A stretch of DNA of 37,943 nt from a virus. Position 1 is the first letter of the stretch. The number at the start of each line of letters is the position of its first letter. Shown piece after piece: positions 27,214-35,083 of the stretch. The notes under the pieces were generated by a model that was not told the DNA's origin, searched no databases, and saw only the letters and a program-made list of their open reading frames with translations. A program made the position numbers and the translations under genes. The stretch covers positions 1-37,943 of IMG/VR virus record IMGVR_UViG_3300007734_000660. One strand, given 5' to 3'.

Positions 27214-27569
27214 CTCTCGACGGCTCCGGCTACAGCTACGGCTCCGGCTCCGGCTACGGCTACGGCTCCGGCTCCGGCTCCGGCTACAGCTCCGGCTACG
27301 GCTACAGCTACGGCTCCGGCTACGGCGACGGCTCCGGCTCCGGCTACGGCGACGGCGACGGCGACGGCTACGGCTACGGCTACGGCTCCGGCTACGGCGA
27401 CGGCTACGGCGACGGCTCCGGCTACGGCGACGGCTACGGCGACGGCTACGGCTACGGCTACGGCTCCTGCTACGGCTACGGCGACGGCGACGGCTACGGC
27501 TACGGCTACGGCTACGGCGACGGCGACGGCTACGGCGACGGCTACGGCGACGGCTACGGCGGAAACTGA
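27198..27569 (+). CDS. Gly-X repeat protein (X = Tyr, Ser, Asp)
   Basis: 123 residues from GTG 27198. After MQRILTLD comes an almost perfect Gly-X alternation, with X Tyr, Ser, Asp and one Cys, up to a GGN end. It is encoded by 56 GGC-NNC hexamers (27222-27560), see the repeat entry. Composition resembles flexible self-associating or adhesive protein segments, but no catalytic part exists. The 16-base overlap with the preceding gene supports expression as part of that operon. A role in structure or phase separation is only speculation. Confidence 0.6.
   Translation: MQRILTLDGSGYSYGSGSGYGYGSGSGSGYSSGYGYSYGSGYGDGSGSGYGDGDGDGYGYGYGSGYGDGYGDGSGYGDGYGDGYGYGYGSCYGYGDGDGYGYGYGYGDGDGYGDGYGDGYGGN
27222..27560 (+). 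repeat. Hexanucleotide GGC-NNC tandem array
   Basis: About 56 copies of GGC followed by TAC, TCC, GAC, AGC or TGC. Variants differ by one or two bases, so the DNA is a low-complexity array that is open in several frames on both strands. Copy-number change by slippage would keep the frame. Confidence 0.95.
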
Positions 27570-30274: not shown

Positions 30275-30455
30275 CGAGGCGCCTTCAAGACTTGAGAGCA
30301 GCGGGAGAGTGCCGTCGTATAGAACCGTGTGCCTTGCGATACTCAAGAACGACGTGAATTTGAAGTCCTTGGGATTTTCGCCAACGCCATGCACGGCATA
30401 CATGGCGATAAAGAGAATTGAAATCGAAGCCAGGAAGCCAAAGGATGTCGCATGA
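30207..30455 (+). CDS. Stand-alone DUF3440-like small protein
   Basis: 82 residues from ATG 30207, preceded by GGAAAGGA; a longer start at 30159 is possible. The segment VPSYRTVCLAILKNDVNLKS, then LGFSP, is clearly related to IPTYKRMCVCIMKNDHLCKY, LGF-like end, of the IbrA product (about residues 380-402). It is therefore a detached version of the C-terminal domain of that protein. Its stop overlaps the IbrA start (ATGA). Likely binds the same partner or competes for it. Confidence 0.7.
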   Translation: MREKIRKWIKQWESRCYSLGITDEAPSRLESSGRVPSYRTVCLAILKNDVNLKSLGFSPTPCTAYMAIKRIEIEARKPKDVA

Positions 30456-31750
30456 ATGTTTACCAAGCCGCGAAAGACAGGGTGGCGAAGGTGTTTTCCG
30501 AGTTCGATAACGTGTACGTTTCTTTTTCCGGAGGAAAAGATTCGGGCGTTCTTTTGAACCTTTGCATCGACCATATCAGGCAAAACGCACCGCACAGAAG
30601 AATCAGTGTGTTTCACATAGACTACGAGGCGCAGTACCAGATGACGACGGACTATGTGGACCGGGAGCTTGGCAAGAATCGCGACGTGATGGACGTGTAC
30701 CGGATCTGTCTGCCAATCGCCGCGAACTGCGCCACAAACATGGAGCGCGGGTTTTGGATTCCATGGGACCAAGACGCAAAGGATTTGTGGGTCCGCGATC
30801 TACCCAAAGAATCAGTGAACGAGTCAAACCATGAGTTCCCGTGGTTCACTAAGGGGATGTGGGATTACGACCTACAAGAAAGGTTTGCAGGATGGCTACA
30901 CAAGAAGAACAAGGCGAAGAATACGGCGTGCATGGTTGGCATAAGAACAGACGAAAGCCTGAACCGATGGCGCGCCATTCATTCGGACAAAAACAAAAAC
31001 AAACTCGGCTCATTCGCTTGGACATTGCAGATAGAAAAGAACGTCTATAGCGCATACCCCATATTCGACTGGAAGGTTGATGATGTGTGGATTGCAAACG
31101 GAAGGTGCGGTTGGGAGTACAACAGGCTTTACGACCTGTTTTGGAAGGCTGGTGTTCCGGTCAGCAAGATGCGGGTGGCAAGCCCGTTTCACGAGTGTGG
31201 CTTGGAAAACCTCAAGCTATACAAGGTAATTGACCCGAAGAACTGGGCCAAGATGGTTGGAAGAACAAACGGCGTAAACTTTGCGGGAATCTACGGCGGA
31301 ACGACGGCGATGGGGTGGAAATCAATCAAACTTCCTCCAGGTCACACATGGAAGAGTTACATGGAATTTCTATTGTCAACGCTCCCAAAGGAGGCGGCGG
31401 AATCGTACAAAAAAAAACTGGAAACAAGCGTCGCTTTTTGGCGGGACAAAGGTGGCTGCCTTTCCGTTGAGTTGATAGCAAAGCTTCGGGCAATGAATAT
31501 CCCGATAAAGGTCGAGGAATCAACAAACTATAAAACAGACAAAAAGCCTGTCCGAATGGAGTACCTTGACGACATTGACATAGAAGAGTTTCGAGAGATA
31601 CCAACCTACAAAAGGATGTGCGTGTGCATAATGAAAAACGATCACCTTTGCAAATACATGGGGTTTTCACTGACGAAGACGGAAACGCAATTGCGTCAGG
31701 AGGCTGAAAGGCAATATGGCGCGATTGAGTTTGAAAGGAGTCACCAATGA
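30452..31750 (+). CDS. ibrA: IbrA-like PAPS-reductase-family PP-loop protein
   Basis: 432 residues. PP-loop ATP-pyrophosphatase motif VSFSGGKDSG (23-32) near the N-terminus, a long middle region (FHIDYEAQYQ; CMVGIRTDESLNRW), and a C-terminal DUF3440-type domain ending ...IPTYKRMCVCIMKNDHLC. This is the IbrA/phosphoadenosine-phosphosulfate-reductase-like group, homologous to DndC in fold. In E. coli prophages ibrA is paired with ibrB and affects expression of Ig-binding proteins. The chemistry is unproven; adenylate-forming or sulfur-linked modification is possible. Its stop overlaps the IbrB start, so the pair is co-translated. Confidence 0.85.
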   Translation: MNVYQAAKDRVAKVFSEFDNVYVSFSGGKDSGVLLNLCIDHIRQNAPHRRISVFHIDYEAQYQMTTDYVDRELGKNRDVMDVYRICLPIAANCATNMERGFWIPWDQDAKDLWVRDLPKESVNESNHEFPWFTKGMWDYDLQERFAGWLHKKNKAKNTACMVGIRTDESLNRWRAIHSDKNKNKLGSFAWTLQIEKNVYSAYPIFDWKVDDVWIANGRCGWEYNRLYDLFWKAGVPVSKMRVASPFHECGLENLKLYKVIDPKNWAKMVGRTNGVNFAGIYGGTTAMGWKSIKLPPGHTWKSYMEFLLSTLPKEAAESYKKKLETSVAFWRDKGGCLSVELIAKLRAMNIPIKVEESTNYKTDKKPVRMEYLDDIDIEEFREIPTYKRMCVCIMKNDHLCKYMGFSLTKTETQLRQEAERQYGAIEFERSHQ

Positions 31751-32262
31751 GCGAGTTCAAGTCTCCGGTTTACAGCGTCAAAGCCGTTCCAATCGAAAAG
31801 GTGCGGGCAAACAGCTACAACCCAAACAGTGTAGCGCCACCTGAAATGGACCTGTTGGAGGTGTCAATTTGGGAGGATGGGTTCACGATGCCGGTCGTGT
31901 GTTACTATTTGAAAGATGATGATGTCTACGAGATTGTGGACGGATACCATCGATACACGACGCTCAAGACGAGCAAGCGCATATTTGAAAGAGAAAAGGG
32001 ACTCTTGCCGGTTGTTGTTATCGACAAGGACCCTTCCAATCGGATGGCGTCCACCATTCGACACAACAGGGCGCGCGGATCTCACTCTATCGACTTGATG
32101 TCTAACATCGTCGCGGAGCTTACAAGGGCAGGGATGTCGGATGCTTGGATTCTAAAGCACGTCGGAATGGATAAGGACGAGCTTTTGAGGCTGAAGCAAA
32201 TCACCGGCATTGCAGACCTTTTCAAGGACAAGGAATTTTCGGAAGCATTCGATGAAAAGTGA
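31747..32262 (+). CDS. ibrB: IbrB-like ParB-domain protein
   Basis: 171 residues from ATG in the IbrA stop. ParB core: NPNSVAPPEMDLLEVSI (25-41), DGYHRYTTL (ParB box, about 66-74) and RHNRARGSHS (about 105-114), the (CTP-binding) ParB/Srx fold pattern. It is the partner of IbrA in prophages. Probable DNA-associated adaptor or nucleotide-binding component. No HTH domain follows. Confidence 0.85.
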   Translation: MSEFKSPVYSVKAVPIEKVRANSYNPNSVAPPEMDLLEVSIWEDGFTMPVVCYYLKDDDVYEIVDGYHRYTTLKTSKRIFEREKGLLPVVVIDKDPSNRMASTIRHNRARGSHSIDLMSNIVAELTRAGMSDAWILKHVGMDKDELLRLKQITGIADLFKDKEFSEAFDEK

Positions 32263-32633: not shown

Positions 32634-32905
32634 CGAGCGACGAACGCAAAGAAGCACGGGCCAAAGCCGCAGAGGGCGGATACTGGCGACTGACCAACCC
32701 TTACGAGATCCGAAATCCGGAGCATATGACGGCCTACGCTAGCTGTCTGCGATCCTTATCAGGTGGGCGTAGCACCTACCGAATCGTCCGCACCGTGGAC
32801 GACGGCGCGGAGTGCCTGGAAGTCTGGCGCAAAGGCGGTATTCCGCCAACACCCGACGAGGACGAGCAGGAAGACCCCGCAGACGCGTCCAAACCCAACG
32901 ACTGA
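32630..32905 (+). CDS. Hypothetical acidic protein
   Basis: 91 residues from an ATGA overlap. N-terminal basic helix, beta TYRIVRTVDDGAECLEVWRK and an acidic Asp/Glu/Pro tail. Unknown; it precedes the replication initiator by 43 bases. Confidence 0.5.
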   Translation: MTSDERKEARAKAAEGGYWRLTNPYEIRNPEHMTAYASCLRSLSGGRSTYRIVRTVDDGAECLEVWRKGGIPPTPDEDEQEDPADASKPND

Positions 32906-32948
32906 CACAACGCCCGGGTTCCGAGATTCGGACCCGGGCAAACGATTT

Positions 32949-33734
32949 ATGGACGAGAAAACCAAGAGCAGAAACCCGTGGTTCAGGTTCTACGCGGATG
33001 ACTTTTTTGCCGGTACTGCCGACATGTCACAAGCCGAGGTCGGGGCGTACATTCGACTGCTTTGCCACCAGTGGAACCGTGGCTCAATTCCGGTTCAGCC
33101 GGACAAGTTGCAACGTCTCGCAGGTGGCATTGTGACAAACGAGGTGATGCAAAAGTTCAAAATTGTCGAAAACGACTGCCGGAAGAACCAACGAATGGAG
33201 GTTGAGAGAGGCAAGCAGGACGCGTTTATCGCAAAACAAAGGGGAAACGGCGTAAAGAGCGGAGAAGCAAGACGAAGGTTGGTTGAACCACGGTTCAATT
33301 CTGGTTCAACCAAAAACGAACCACGGTTCAATTCTGGTTGCGATTTGGTTCCAACCAAACATGAACCCCCCATAACCATAACCATTGGTAAAGACATATG
33401 CTCATCTGCGATGAGCGATGAGTTCGACAAATTCTGGAACTCCTACCCGAGACGCGTTGGAAAGAAAACCGCCAAGGCGTCATGGTCGAAGCTCAAACCC
33501 GAAGACAAGGCCGATGCCATGGGCAAGCTCCCGGCGTTCCTGTCGTCCGAGGATTGGACAAAGGACGGCGGGCAATTTGTCCCACACCCCGCGACTTGGC
33601 TCAACGGTCGCAGGTGGGAGGACGAGATCGCACCGCAGTCACCGAAGGCACAAGCCAACGGCAAGCCTCTCACGGCAGAGCAACGGTGGGGGCAGAAGAT
33701 GCTGGCGCAGATCGAAGCGGAGGCCGCGAAATGA
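32949..33734 (+). CDS. Replication initiator/helicase loader-like protein (DUF1376)
   Basis: 261 residues from ATG 32949. Residues 10-60 (WFRFYADDFFAGTADMSQAE, then GAYIRLLCHQWNRGSIP) are the DUF1376 domain of phage primosomal proteins. A middle linker has EPRFNSG twice (113-119 and 124-130); the C-terminal domain (FDKFWNSYPRRVGKKTAKAS to HPATWLNGRRWEDE) is a DnaT/replisome-organiser-like part. Together this loads the DnaB-like helicase next door. The linker DNA contains iteron-like repeats. Its stop overlaps the helicase start (ATGA). Confidence 0.8.
   Translation: MDEKTKSRNPWFRFYADDFFAGTADMSQAEVGAYIRLLCHQWNRGSIPVQPDKLQRLAGGIVTNEVMQKFKIVENDCRKNQRMEVERGKQDAFIAKQRGNGVKSGEARRRLVEPRFNSGSTKNEPRFNSGCDLVPTKHEPPITITIGKDICSSAMSDEFDKFWNSYPRRVGKKTAKASWSKLKPEDKADAMGKLPAFLSSEDWTKDGGQFVPHPATWLNGRRWEDEIAPQSPKAQANGKPLTAEQRWGQKMLAQIEAEAAK
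33074..33339 (+). repeat. Iteron-like repeats, candidate replication origin
   Basis: A perfect 22-bp repeat beginning GAACCACGGTTCAATTCTGG occurs at 33285-33306 and 33318-33339, 33 bp apart. A 27-bp relative with five transitions is at 33074-33100 in a different reading frame. TTGAACC-AC-GGTTCAA (33283-33298) is a perfect inverted repeat. Frame-independent conservation and the position inside the initiator gene recall lambda ori inside gene O. Confidence 0.6.
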
Positions 33735-35083
33735 TTGCCGACCCGATCAACGCGAACGCGGACGCCAGCCTGCCGCCGCATTCGATGGAATGTGAAAACG
33801 GGCTCATCGCGGCTACCATTGGAAACCGCGACGGCATTGCCGAGGCTTACGCACTCGGCATCCGAGACGATGCCTTTTTCTCGCTCCCTCACCGGCACGT
33901 CTGGCAGGCAATTACGGAACTTGAGGCGCAGGGCGCCCCAGTCGAGATCGTGGCCATCGCCCAGAGGCTCCGGGAGCAAGGCAGGCTCGACGGCGTCACC
34001 GCCTCCGTTTCCCTGTTCGCGTTAGCAAACGACGCAGTCCCCGGAATGCTCCAATGGTTCGTCCAAGGCATTCTGAAAGCGTGGGAGCTACGCAGAGTCA
34101 TTCGGGCATCCCAAAATGCCGTGGCGGTGGCAATGCGCGCGAATGCGGACCCCTCCCAGATCGTGCTTGAGCTTGAAAATGAGCTTGAGGCGGCAAAACA
34201 CCATTCGCAGGCATCGACTCGGACCGCGAAACAGGTCTGCCGATCGTGGATCGACCGGGTACAGCAACGGCAGGCTGACAGGGCAGCGGGAACGACCTTG
34301 TCGGGAATCCCGACGGGGTTCGCGAAGCTCGACGCCATGAGCAGTGGACTAATGCCGGGAACGATGACCGTGATTGGAGCCCGTCCATCTGTCGGGAAAA
34401 CGGCGATGCTGTGCAACCTCGTTCGGAGCGCGGGAATCGACGGACAGATCCCGACGACCGTCGTAAGCCTAGAGACGATGCACGAAACGCTAATGGACCG
34501 GATTGCGTCGGACGTTTGCCGGATCGACGGCTGGAAGCTCCGCGACGGCATCCAACTGGGCGATGAAGAGCAGCGCCGCCTTGTTGTGTTCGCTGCAAAG
34601 GCGTCCGCCGCGCCCGTTACTTGGTCTGTGGACGTGTTCGACTGTGCGGGCATCTGTTCCATGATCGGACGCCATGCCGACGCCGGAACGAAGTTGTTCC
34701 TCATCGACTACCTGCAAATCGTAAACCCAGGCGGCACACACGACCGCCGCGCCTACTCGGTCGGAAGCGTGGCAACGGCGCTCAAGCAGGCTTCATTGCG
34801 CCACAAGGTTGCCGTCGTCGTGTTGGCCCAGTTGAAGCGCACGGACACGGACGAGTCGCTTCCTACCGCAAACGACCTTGCCGACTCAGACCAGATATTC
34901 CGAGACGCTGACCTGCTGTGGCTTCTCCACCGGCCCGATAGGTTCGACGAGCCAACAAAGGGCTCGGTTGTCGTGGCGAAGAATAAGGAGGGCGAGACGG
35001 CAATCGTCCCCATGCACTACGACCCGTCAAATTTCCGGTGGACCGAAAACATCCCATCAAAAATCGACCATGACGCCCGCTGA
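33731..35083 (+). CDS. DnaB-like replicative helicase
   Basis: 450 residues from ATG 33731 (ATGA with the initiator). N-terminal domain with HSMECENGLIAATI, HRHVWQAITELE; RecA-like domain with Walker A GARPSVGKT (216-224), SLETM (246-250), Walker B KLFLIDYLQ (321-329) and a LAQLKR motif. Unwinds DNA at the fork as a hexamer. It forms the replication pair with the DUF1376 protein. Length near the family norm. Confidence 0.92.
   Translation: MIADPINANADASLPPHSMECENGLIAATIGNRDGIAEAYALGIRDDAFFSLPHRHVWQAITELEAQGAPVEIVAIAQRLREQGRLDGVTASVSLFALANDAVPGMLQWFVQGILKAWELRRVIRASQNAVAVAMRANADPSQIVLELENELEAAKHHSQASTRTAKQVCRSWIDRVQQRQADRAAGTTLSGIPTGFAKLDAMSSGLMPGTMTVIGARPSVGKTAMLCNLVRSAGIDGQIPTTVVSLETMHETLMDRIASDVCRIDGWKLRDGIQLGDEEQRRLVVFAAKASAAPVTWSVDVFDCAGICSMIGRHADAGTKLFLIDYLQIVNPGGTHDRRAYSVGSVATALKQASLRHKVAVVVLAQLKRTDTDESLPTANDLADSDQIFRDADLLWLLHRPDRFDEPTKGSVVVAKNKEGETAIVPMHYDPSNFRWTENIPSKIDHDAR

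Follow-up and report, generated by a model that had tools for sequence, protein, structure and literature searches.

The sequence analysed, referred to here as the window, comprises all 37,943 nucleotides of IMGVR_UViG_3300007734_000660, a 37.9-kb virus record classed as linear by IMG/VR. It codes for a GpA-type terminase, a lambda-family portal, an S49 protease, a GP7-type major capsid protein, and an exonuclease VIII-like protein, and a replication block lies in its right part; on the basis of these genes, the window was assigned to a tailed phage. The block contains a 261-aa initiator (32949-33734, plus strand), composed of an N-terminal DUF1376 domain, a disordered linker, and a C-terminal F..FW..YP domain. 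It is followed by a DnaB-like replicative helicase (33731-35083, plus strand) with matches to PF03796 (E=3.2e-46), PF00772 (E=8.8e-11), and PHROG 19, which has both N- and C-terminal domains and whose start codon overlaps the initiator stop codon (ATGA). Further upstream, at 30452-32262, a PAPS-reductase-like/DUF3440 gene precedes a ParB-like gene, the latter 0.7 kb upstream of the initiator gene. The same pair is found in Streptococcus phages and is reminiscent of the IbrA/IbrB pair; this region has a GC content of 48-50%, lower than elsewhere in the window.

The only Pfam match of the initiator was PF07120 (DUF1376), with E=2.7e-8 and 34.5 bits, above the gathering score of 30.1. The match is partial and covers residues 10-61, corresponding to profile positions 1-53 of 86. 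Among PHROG families, the protein was assigned to 9327 “primosomal protein” (E=2.9e-40) as well as to 9474 and 270, both “replication initiation protein”. Relatives of the initiator are annotated inconsistently in phage records (H4-H6, H19, and H23), where they appear as “putative antirepressor protein”, “coil containing protein”, “pyocin large subunit”, “hypothetical protein”, and “primosomal protein”.

An AlphaFold2 model of the initiator, built on an alignment of 27 sequences, reached a mean pLDDT of 74. The modelled N-terminal domain is well resolved, with three helices and a two-stranded wing followed by a long helix that extends to residue 111, and the modelled C-terminal domain, equally well resolved, is helical. 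Residues 116-153 form the sole long disordered stretch (pLDDT about 36) and correspond to nucleotides 33294-33407. Foldseek returned no match to the model below E=0.001, and a sequence search of solved structures with the initiator returned none. A second structure alignment weakly recovered winged helices of ORC, plasmid Rep, and DnaD proteins at Z 3.7-5.4 (best 5.4); the solved RepA structures 4pql, 4pt7, 4pta, and 5kbj, with Z 3.7-4.3, were recovered along with a large number of further winged helices (Z 3-5). As far as the broad fold of the model, its usable part, can indicate, these neighbours would be weakly compatible with an N-terminal domain that binds DNA.

Within the initiator gene, seven 11-bp units form an array at 33281-33357 on the plus strand, which begins where the long helix ends and from there on occupies the disordered linker. 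The units begin at 33281 (GGTTGAACCAC), 33292 (GGTTCAATTCT), 33303 (GGTTCAACCAA), 33314 (AAACGAACCAC), 33325 (GGTTCAATTCT), 33336 (GGTTGCGATTT), and 33347 (GGTTCCAACCA), and approximate GGTTCAACCAM with the core GGTT-N-AACC. Read as a 9-bp core close to GGTT-N-AACC plus two bases, which amounts to one helical turn per unit, they are GGTTGAACC-AC, GGTTCAATT-CT, GGTTCAACC-AA, AAACGAACC-AC, GGTTCAATT-CT, GGTTGCGAT-TT, and GGTTCCAAC-CA. GGTT itself occurs at 33281, 33292, 33303, 33325, 33336, and 33347. Across 33270-33362, lags of 11, 22, 33, 44, 55, and 66 were six of the seven best, with identities of 0.37-0.57 against a mean of 0.25. The comb score at 11 bp was 0.45, compared to 0.20-0.30 for all other periods from 7 to 16, and was reached by none of 5000 dinucleotide shuffles after correction for the choice among these periods. 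Elsewhere in the window, this score was reached by 32 of 3762 segments, the best of them in a 6-bp array at 27220-27560. No other repeat of the window comes near the latter in strength; it comprises 341 bp and approximately 57 copies of the unit ACGGCT at 86% matches. Tandem Repeats Finder run on the window did not report the 11-bp array, as its units are too diverged.

Repetition at the protein level cannot account for the array because 11 is not a multiple of three. When the linker was recoded synonymously, with the protein kept and codons redrawn by the phage’s own usage, six phased GGTT cores appeared in 0 of 1000 recodings. The first-pass annotation had pointed out a perfect 22-bp direct repeat, GAACCACGGTTCAATTCTGGTT, and its two plus-strand copies are indeed present at 33285-33306, spanning units 1-3, and at 33318-33339, 33 bp (3 x 11) further on; an exact repeat of this length was likewise obtained in none of 1000 recodings. 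No further copies at 16 or more of 22 positions were found elsewhere in the window. The nested inverted repeat with 7-bp arms is also present (TTGAACC-AC-GGTTCAA, 33283-33298) and is contained in a larger perfect inverted repeat at 33279-33313, whose 12-bp arms TTGGTTGAACCA and TGGTTCAACCAA lie 11 nt apart (strand fold z = -2.1). These inverted repeats are explained by the unit, since GGTT-N-AACC is itself a dyad, and inverted repeat length in the iteron region was not significant taken alone, as 78 of 1000 recodings reached the same.

Directly behind the array, the 60 bp at 33341-33400 have the lowest stability in the initiator gene and fall near the window's 98th percentile by simple nearest-neighbour means. 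This tract, a putative DNA unwinding element, is moderately AT-rich at about 56-60%, includes a short 6-bp repeat CCATAA at 33370-33385 (Tandem Repeats Finder), and is exceeded in instability by other parts of the window. A perfect hairpin, GCTCATC-TGC-GATGAGC, occupies 33400-33416 at its 3' edge. No promoter-like site was detected in a scan of 32850-33750. Cumulative GC skew, which had been proposed as a check on an origin, showed no switch at the array site and, with co-directional genes, is uninformative there.

The element spans about 33277-33416. It had originally been drawn from 33074 to 33339; the linker repeats stand, while the upstream limit was given up together with the repeat copy that defined it. 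That diverged copy, GAACCGTGGCTCAATTCCGGTT (33074-33095, plus strand), exists as described: it lies 211 bp upstream, agrees with the 22-mer at 18 of 22 positions with four differences that are all transitions, and, as 211 is 1 mod 3, is read in a different frame. What did not hold is that protein conservation could not explain it. The copy lies in codons of the DUF1376 domain, out of phase with the 11-bp array, and codes for WNRGSIP in a conserved part of that domain, and when the first 100 codons were recoded synonymously, 27 of 1000 versions matched the 22-mer as well or better. The nearest relative found (L090) has WSRGSIP at this place, coded by TGGAGTCGTGGCAGTATCCCA, which resembles the codons of the window and not the iterons of L090 itself. 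Outlying iteron copies in N-domain codons showed no clear excess across 45 loci either, with 17 up and 11 down. The copy was therefore rejected as an outlying iteron, being unproven, and is probably a side effect of the conserved protein motif as judged from these sequences.

Relatives were gathered with patterns matching the conserved C-terminal domain and from eight phage records; the linker was not used for selection. An HMM search yielded 234 loci with this domain and, from these, 108 non-redundant 240-bp linkers, whose alignment to the C-terminal domain is approximate by a few codons. An array was scored when at least 25 of 40 positions were equal at a given lag, and 648 segments from the same loci served as controls; thresholds were fixed once nine sequences had been inspected, and controls were handled alike. 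Arrays with lags that are not multiples of three were detected in 62% of the 108 linkers and 1.1% of the 648 controls, those with lags that are multiples of three in 56 and 2.6%, respectively. Averaged over 31 N-domain clusters, the former amounted to 57% against 0.7% in controls, and other window sizes concurred. Arrays outside the codon register are thus a general property of the initiator linker across the 31 clusters. About a third of relatives had no detectable array, and their linkers may hold diverged ones; the linker of the window itself passes the threshold at lag 33 alone, its 11-bp phase being visible over longer stretches. An array filling the initiator linker was observed in a Bacteroidales MAG (L214), where the 12-bp unit ACGTACCACGAT is repeated about nine times with perfect lags of 12, 24, and 36.

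The preferred lags were 5-7, 10-12, and 20-23, and lag 13 was nearly absent. The two types of array follow a fixed order, those of 10-11 or 20-23 bp lying approximately 115-135 bp before the C-terminal domain and those of 5-7 bp approximately 60 bp before it. In 22 of the 28 linkers holding both types, the longer-period array was located 5' of the 5-7-bp array; in the other six, a lag-10 array overlaps the lag-5 array and is probably its harmonic. Lags 11/22 occurred in 8 of 22 DUF1376-type linkers and lags 10/20 in none of the 22, compared to 18 of 86 for either pair with other N-terminal domains (Fisher p=0.014, with the counts treated as separate sets). By the same nearest-neighbour means, the 90 bp preceding the C-terminal domain showed lower stability than the remainder of the gene in 91% of 106 loci (p=1e-16). 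In the last 80-90 bp of the linker, 41.5% of relatives had a hairpin with arms of 6 bp or more, compared to 14.7% of controls.

The first-pass annotation had proposed comparison of the site in related phages. No exact copy of the 22-mer occurs in the viral collection, and searching viral contigs with the single protein confirmed no close relative; L090, which is only approximately 40% identical, keeps the 11-bp phasing with the different core GCCAT. The phase of the units is thus kept as their sequence differs, with GGTT in the window, GCCAT in L090, and GTGCAC in L003. Among locus pairs with N-terminal domains 35-75% similar and C-terminal domains below 60%, 29% shared at least four 7-mers in the iteron part; this was the case for 7.8% of pairs with similar C-terminal and unrelated N-terminal domains and 5.7% of pairs with neither similar. 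As the pairs are non-independent and common descent adds to the 29%, this figure is used as supporting evidence alone. By this comparison of sequences, the iterons appear to tend to go with the N-terminal domain, in agreement with plasmid pPR9, in which N-terminal domain and origin were exchanged together (PMC5703833).

Outside the window, initiator linkers of other phages carry a further element at their 3' end, the near-invariant CCCCCTATA(N0-2)TCCCCC(N0-4)GGGG (e.g., L139, L174, L183, L187, L265, and L303). A looser pattern of this C5/G5 element was found in 18 of 108 linkers against 2 of 1080 controls, in all three codon frames, and a scan of viral contigs returned at least 120 stretches. 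Among the matches listed, 51 stretches had the F..FW..YP domain nearby, and all but one of these 51 lay 24-161 bp 5' of it. Of ten of the other stretches, eight clearly match PHROG initiator, O-like, primosomal, or DnaD-like families; the remaining two were L285 with a weak match (E=0.007) and L252, which matches families of unknown function alone. Distinct cases, again among the matches listed, were distributed over the frames as 67/28/5, and tandem arrays occurred 5' of the element in 35% and 3' of it in 3%. A literature search found no description of the element.

Taken from the sequence, the locus is very probably an intragenic, lambda-like replication origin inside the initiator gene. The first-pass annotation had suggested such an origin in the DUF1376 linker by analogy with lambda ori in gene O, and in silico the suggestion is well supported by the array, the unstable tract, the hairpin, and the relatives. 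In the mechanism we propose, the N-terminal winged-helix DUF1376 domain would bind the 11-bp units at 33281-33357, and one unit per helical turn would place all bound protomers on the same face of the DNA. The resulting nucleoprotein complex may strain and open 33341-33400, beside the hairpin at 33400-33416, and the C-terminal domain would then deliver the DnaB-like helicase encoded by the adjoining, translationally coupled gene. Since the linker peptide would need flexibility alone, its codons would be free to carry DNA sites.

The disorder of the linker could also accommodate a neutral minisatellite, that is, slippage repeats in a linker of irrelevant sequence and without DNA function, as such linkers tolerate repeats and arrays in multiples of three are common too (56%). 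However, gain or loss of 11 bp puts the essential C-terminal domain out of frame, and neutral slippage would therefore be expected to favour periods in multiples of three, as in the 6-bp array at 27220-27560, whereas linker periods of 5, 7, 10, 11, and 22 occur as often as these. The constant phase of the units among relatives with different unit sequences and the association of iteron sequence with the N-terminal domain also speak against slippage, which we regard as improbable. Selection on the peptide instead, as an 11-residue period of EPRFNSG, would agree with the two 22-mers, which lie 33 bp apart in the same frame and both code for EPRFNSG. But the 11-bp phase runs through all three frames, and units 1, 2, and 3 code for unrelated peptides. 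Together with the failure of all 1000 recodings to retain six phased GGTT cores, the predicted disorder of the stretch, and a peptide that is not conserved in relatives, this makes selection as protein extremely unlikely.

Binding could also serve another purpose, the array being an operator or partition site of the initiator or of another regulator, with the origin elsewhere. Initiators often autoregulate as well, and the ParB-like gene 0.7 kb upstream would supply a candidate regulator. Against this reading stand the lack of promoter-like sites in 32850-33750 and of more 22-mer copies in the window at the similarity given above, and the unstable tract and hairpin that accompany the array in a layout recurring in relatives and in lambda ori. 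An operator or partition site is therefore rather less probable still than slippage, and an origin within the initiator gene remains the preferred reading.

A wider proposal is offered tentatively, and we consider it possible but on balance doubtful. Most phage initiators that combine an N-terminal DNA-binding domain, a linker, and a helicase-recruiting part, including DUF1376 proteins, might hold, in the codons of that linker, an origin made of three parts. DNA-binding domain and cognate iterons would be swapped as one cassette, and the 3' hairpin, in other phages often CCCCCTATA(N)TCCCCC-n-GGGG, would be a shared origin part read by a host factor and not by the phage initiator. A lambda-like intragenic origin is of a kind already known; the family-wide linker pattern and the C5/G5 element elsewhere are what is added here. 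If the proposals are true, DUF1376 gains a role as an origin-binding domain, the phage of the window gains a precise origin, and arrays out of codon register in the initiator linker provide a rule for locating origins in many tailed phages and prophages. Because each DNA-binding domain would travel with its own sites, many natural protein-DNA pairs would also become available for learning recognition rules and building compatible replicons.

By profile match, the initiator of the window is a member of DUF1376 (PF07120) and of PHROG 9327, 270, and 9474. A literature search found no experimental origin for the DUF1376 family, nor any account of one located in the linker of its members. In RepA_N plasmids of the pSK41 type, an N-terminal winged helix binds Rep boxes located centrally in rep (PMC5703833). 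The part of rep that contains the origin serves purely as a linker there, and N-terminal domain and origin segment are swapped as a module, as in pPR9 (PMC5703833). These systems differ from the window in being plasmids and not phages and in their domain families; the initiator has no RepA_N match in Pfam, there is no detectable sequence homology, and the fold resemblance is weak.

In lambda and Stx phages, the origin is described as iterons with an AT-rich tract midway along gene O, where extra iterons simply add residues to the protein (PMC7466680). With lambda gene O as positive control, the lag measure peaked over the annotated iterons at 20-24 bp with a score of 24, compared to 26 for the window, and the 60 bp of lowest stability started at locus position 624, iteron 4 ending at 619. 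The two loci differ in several respects. Lambda iterons are 18-bp units at 20-24-bp spacing, whereas the window has 11-bp units at an exact spacing of 11 bp, and its low-stability tract is less AT-rich. The N-terminal domain is Phage_rep_O in lambda and DUF1376 in the window, whose initiator has no match to Phage_rep_O (PF04492), and the next gene codes for a P-type loader in lambda and for the DnaB-like helicase itself in the window. In both, an initiator gene with an N-terminal DNA-binding part (putative in the window) carries dyad-like iterons mid-gene, a low-stability tract follows directly 3' of them with an inverted repeat beyond (that of lambda read from the sequence), and the helicase-recruiting gene comes next in the operon. 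The window thus has the sequence features of a lambda-type origin, namely mid-gene iterons, an adjacent unstable tract, and an inverted repeat beyond it.
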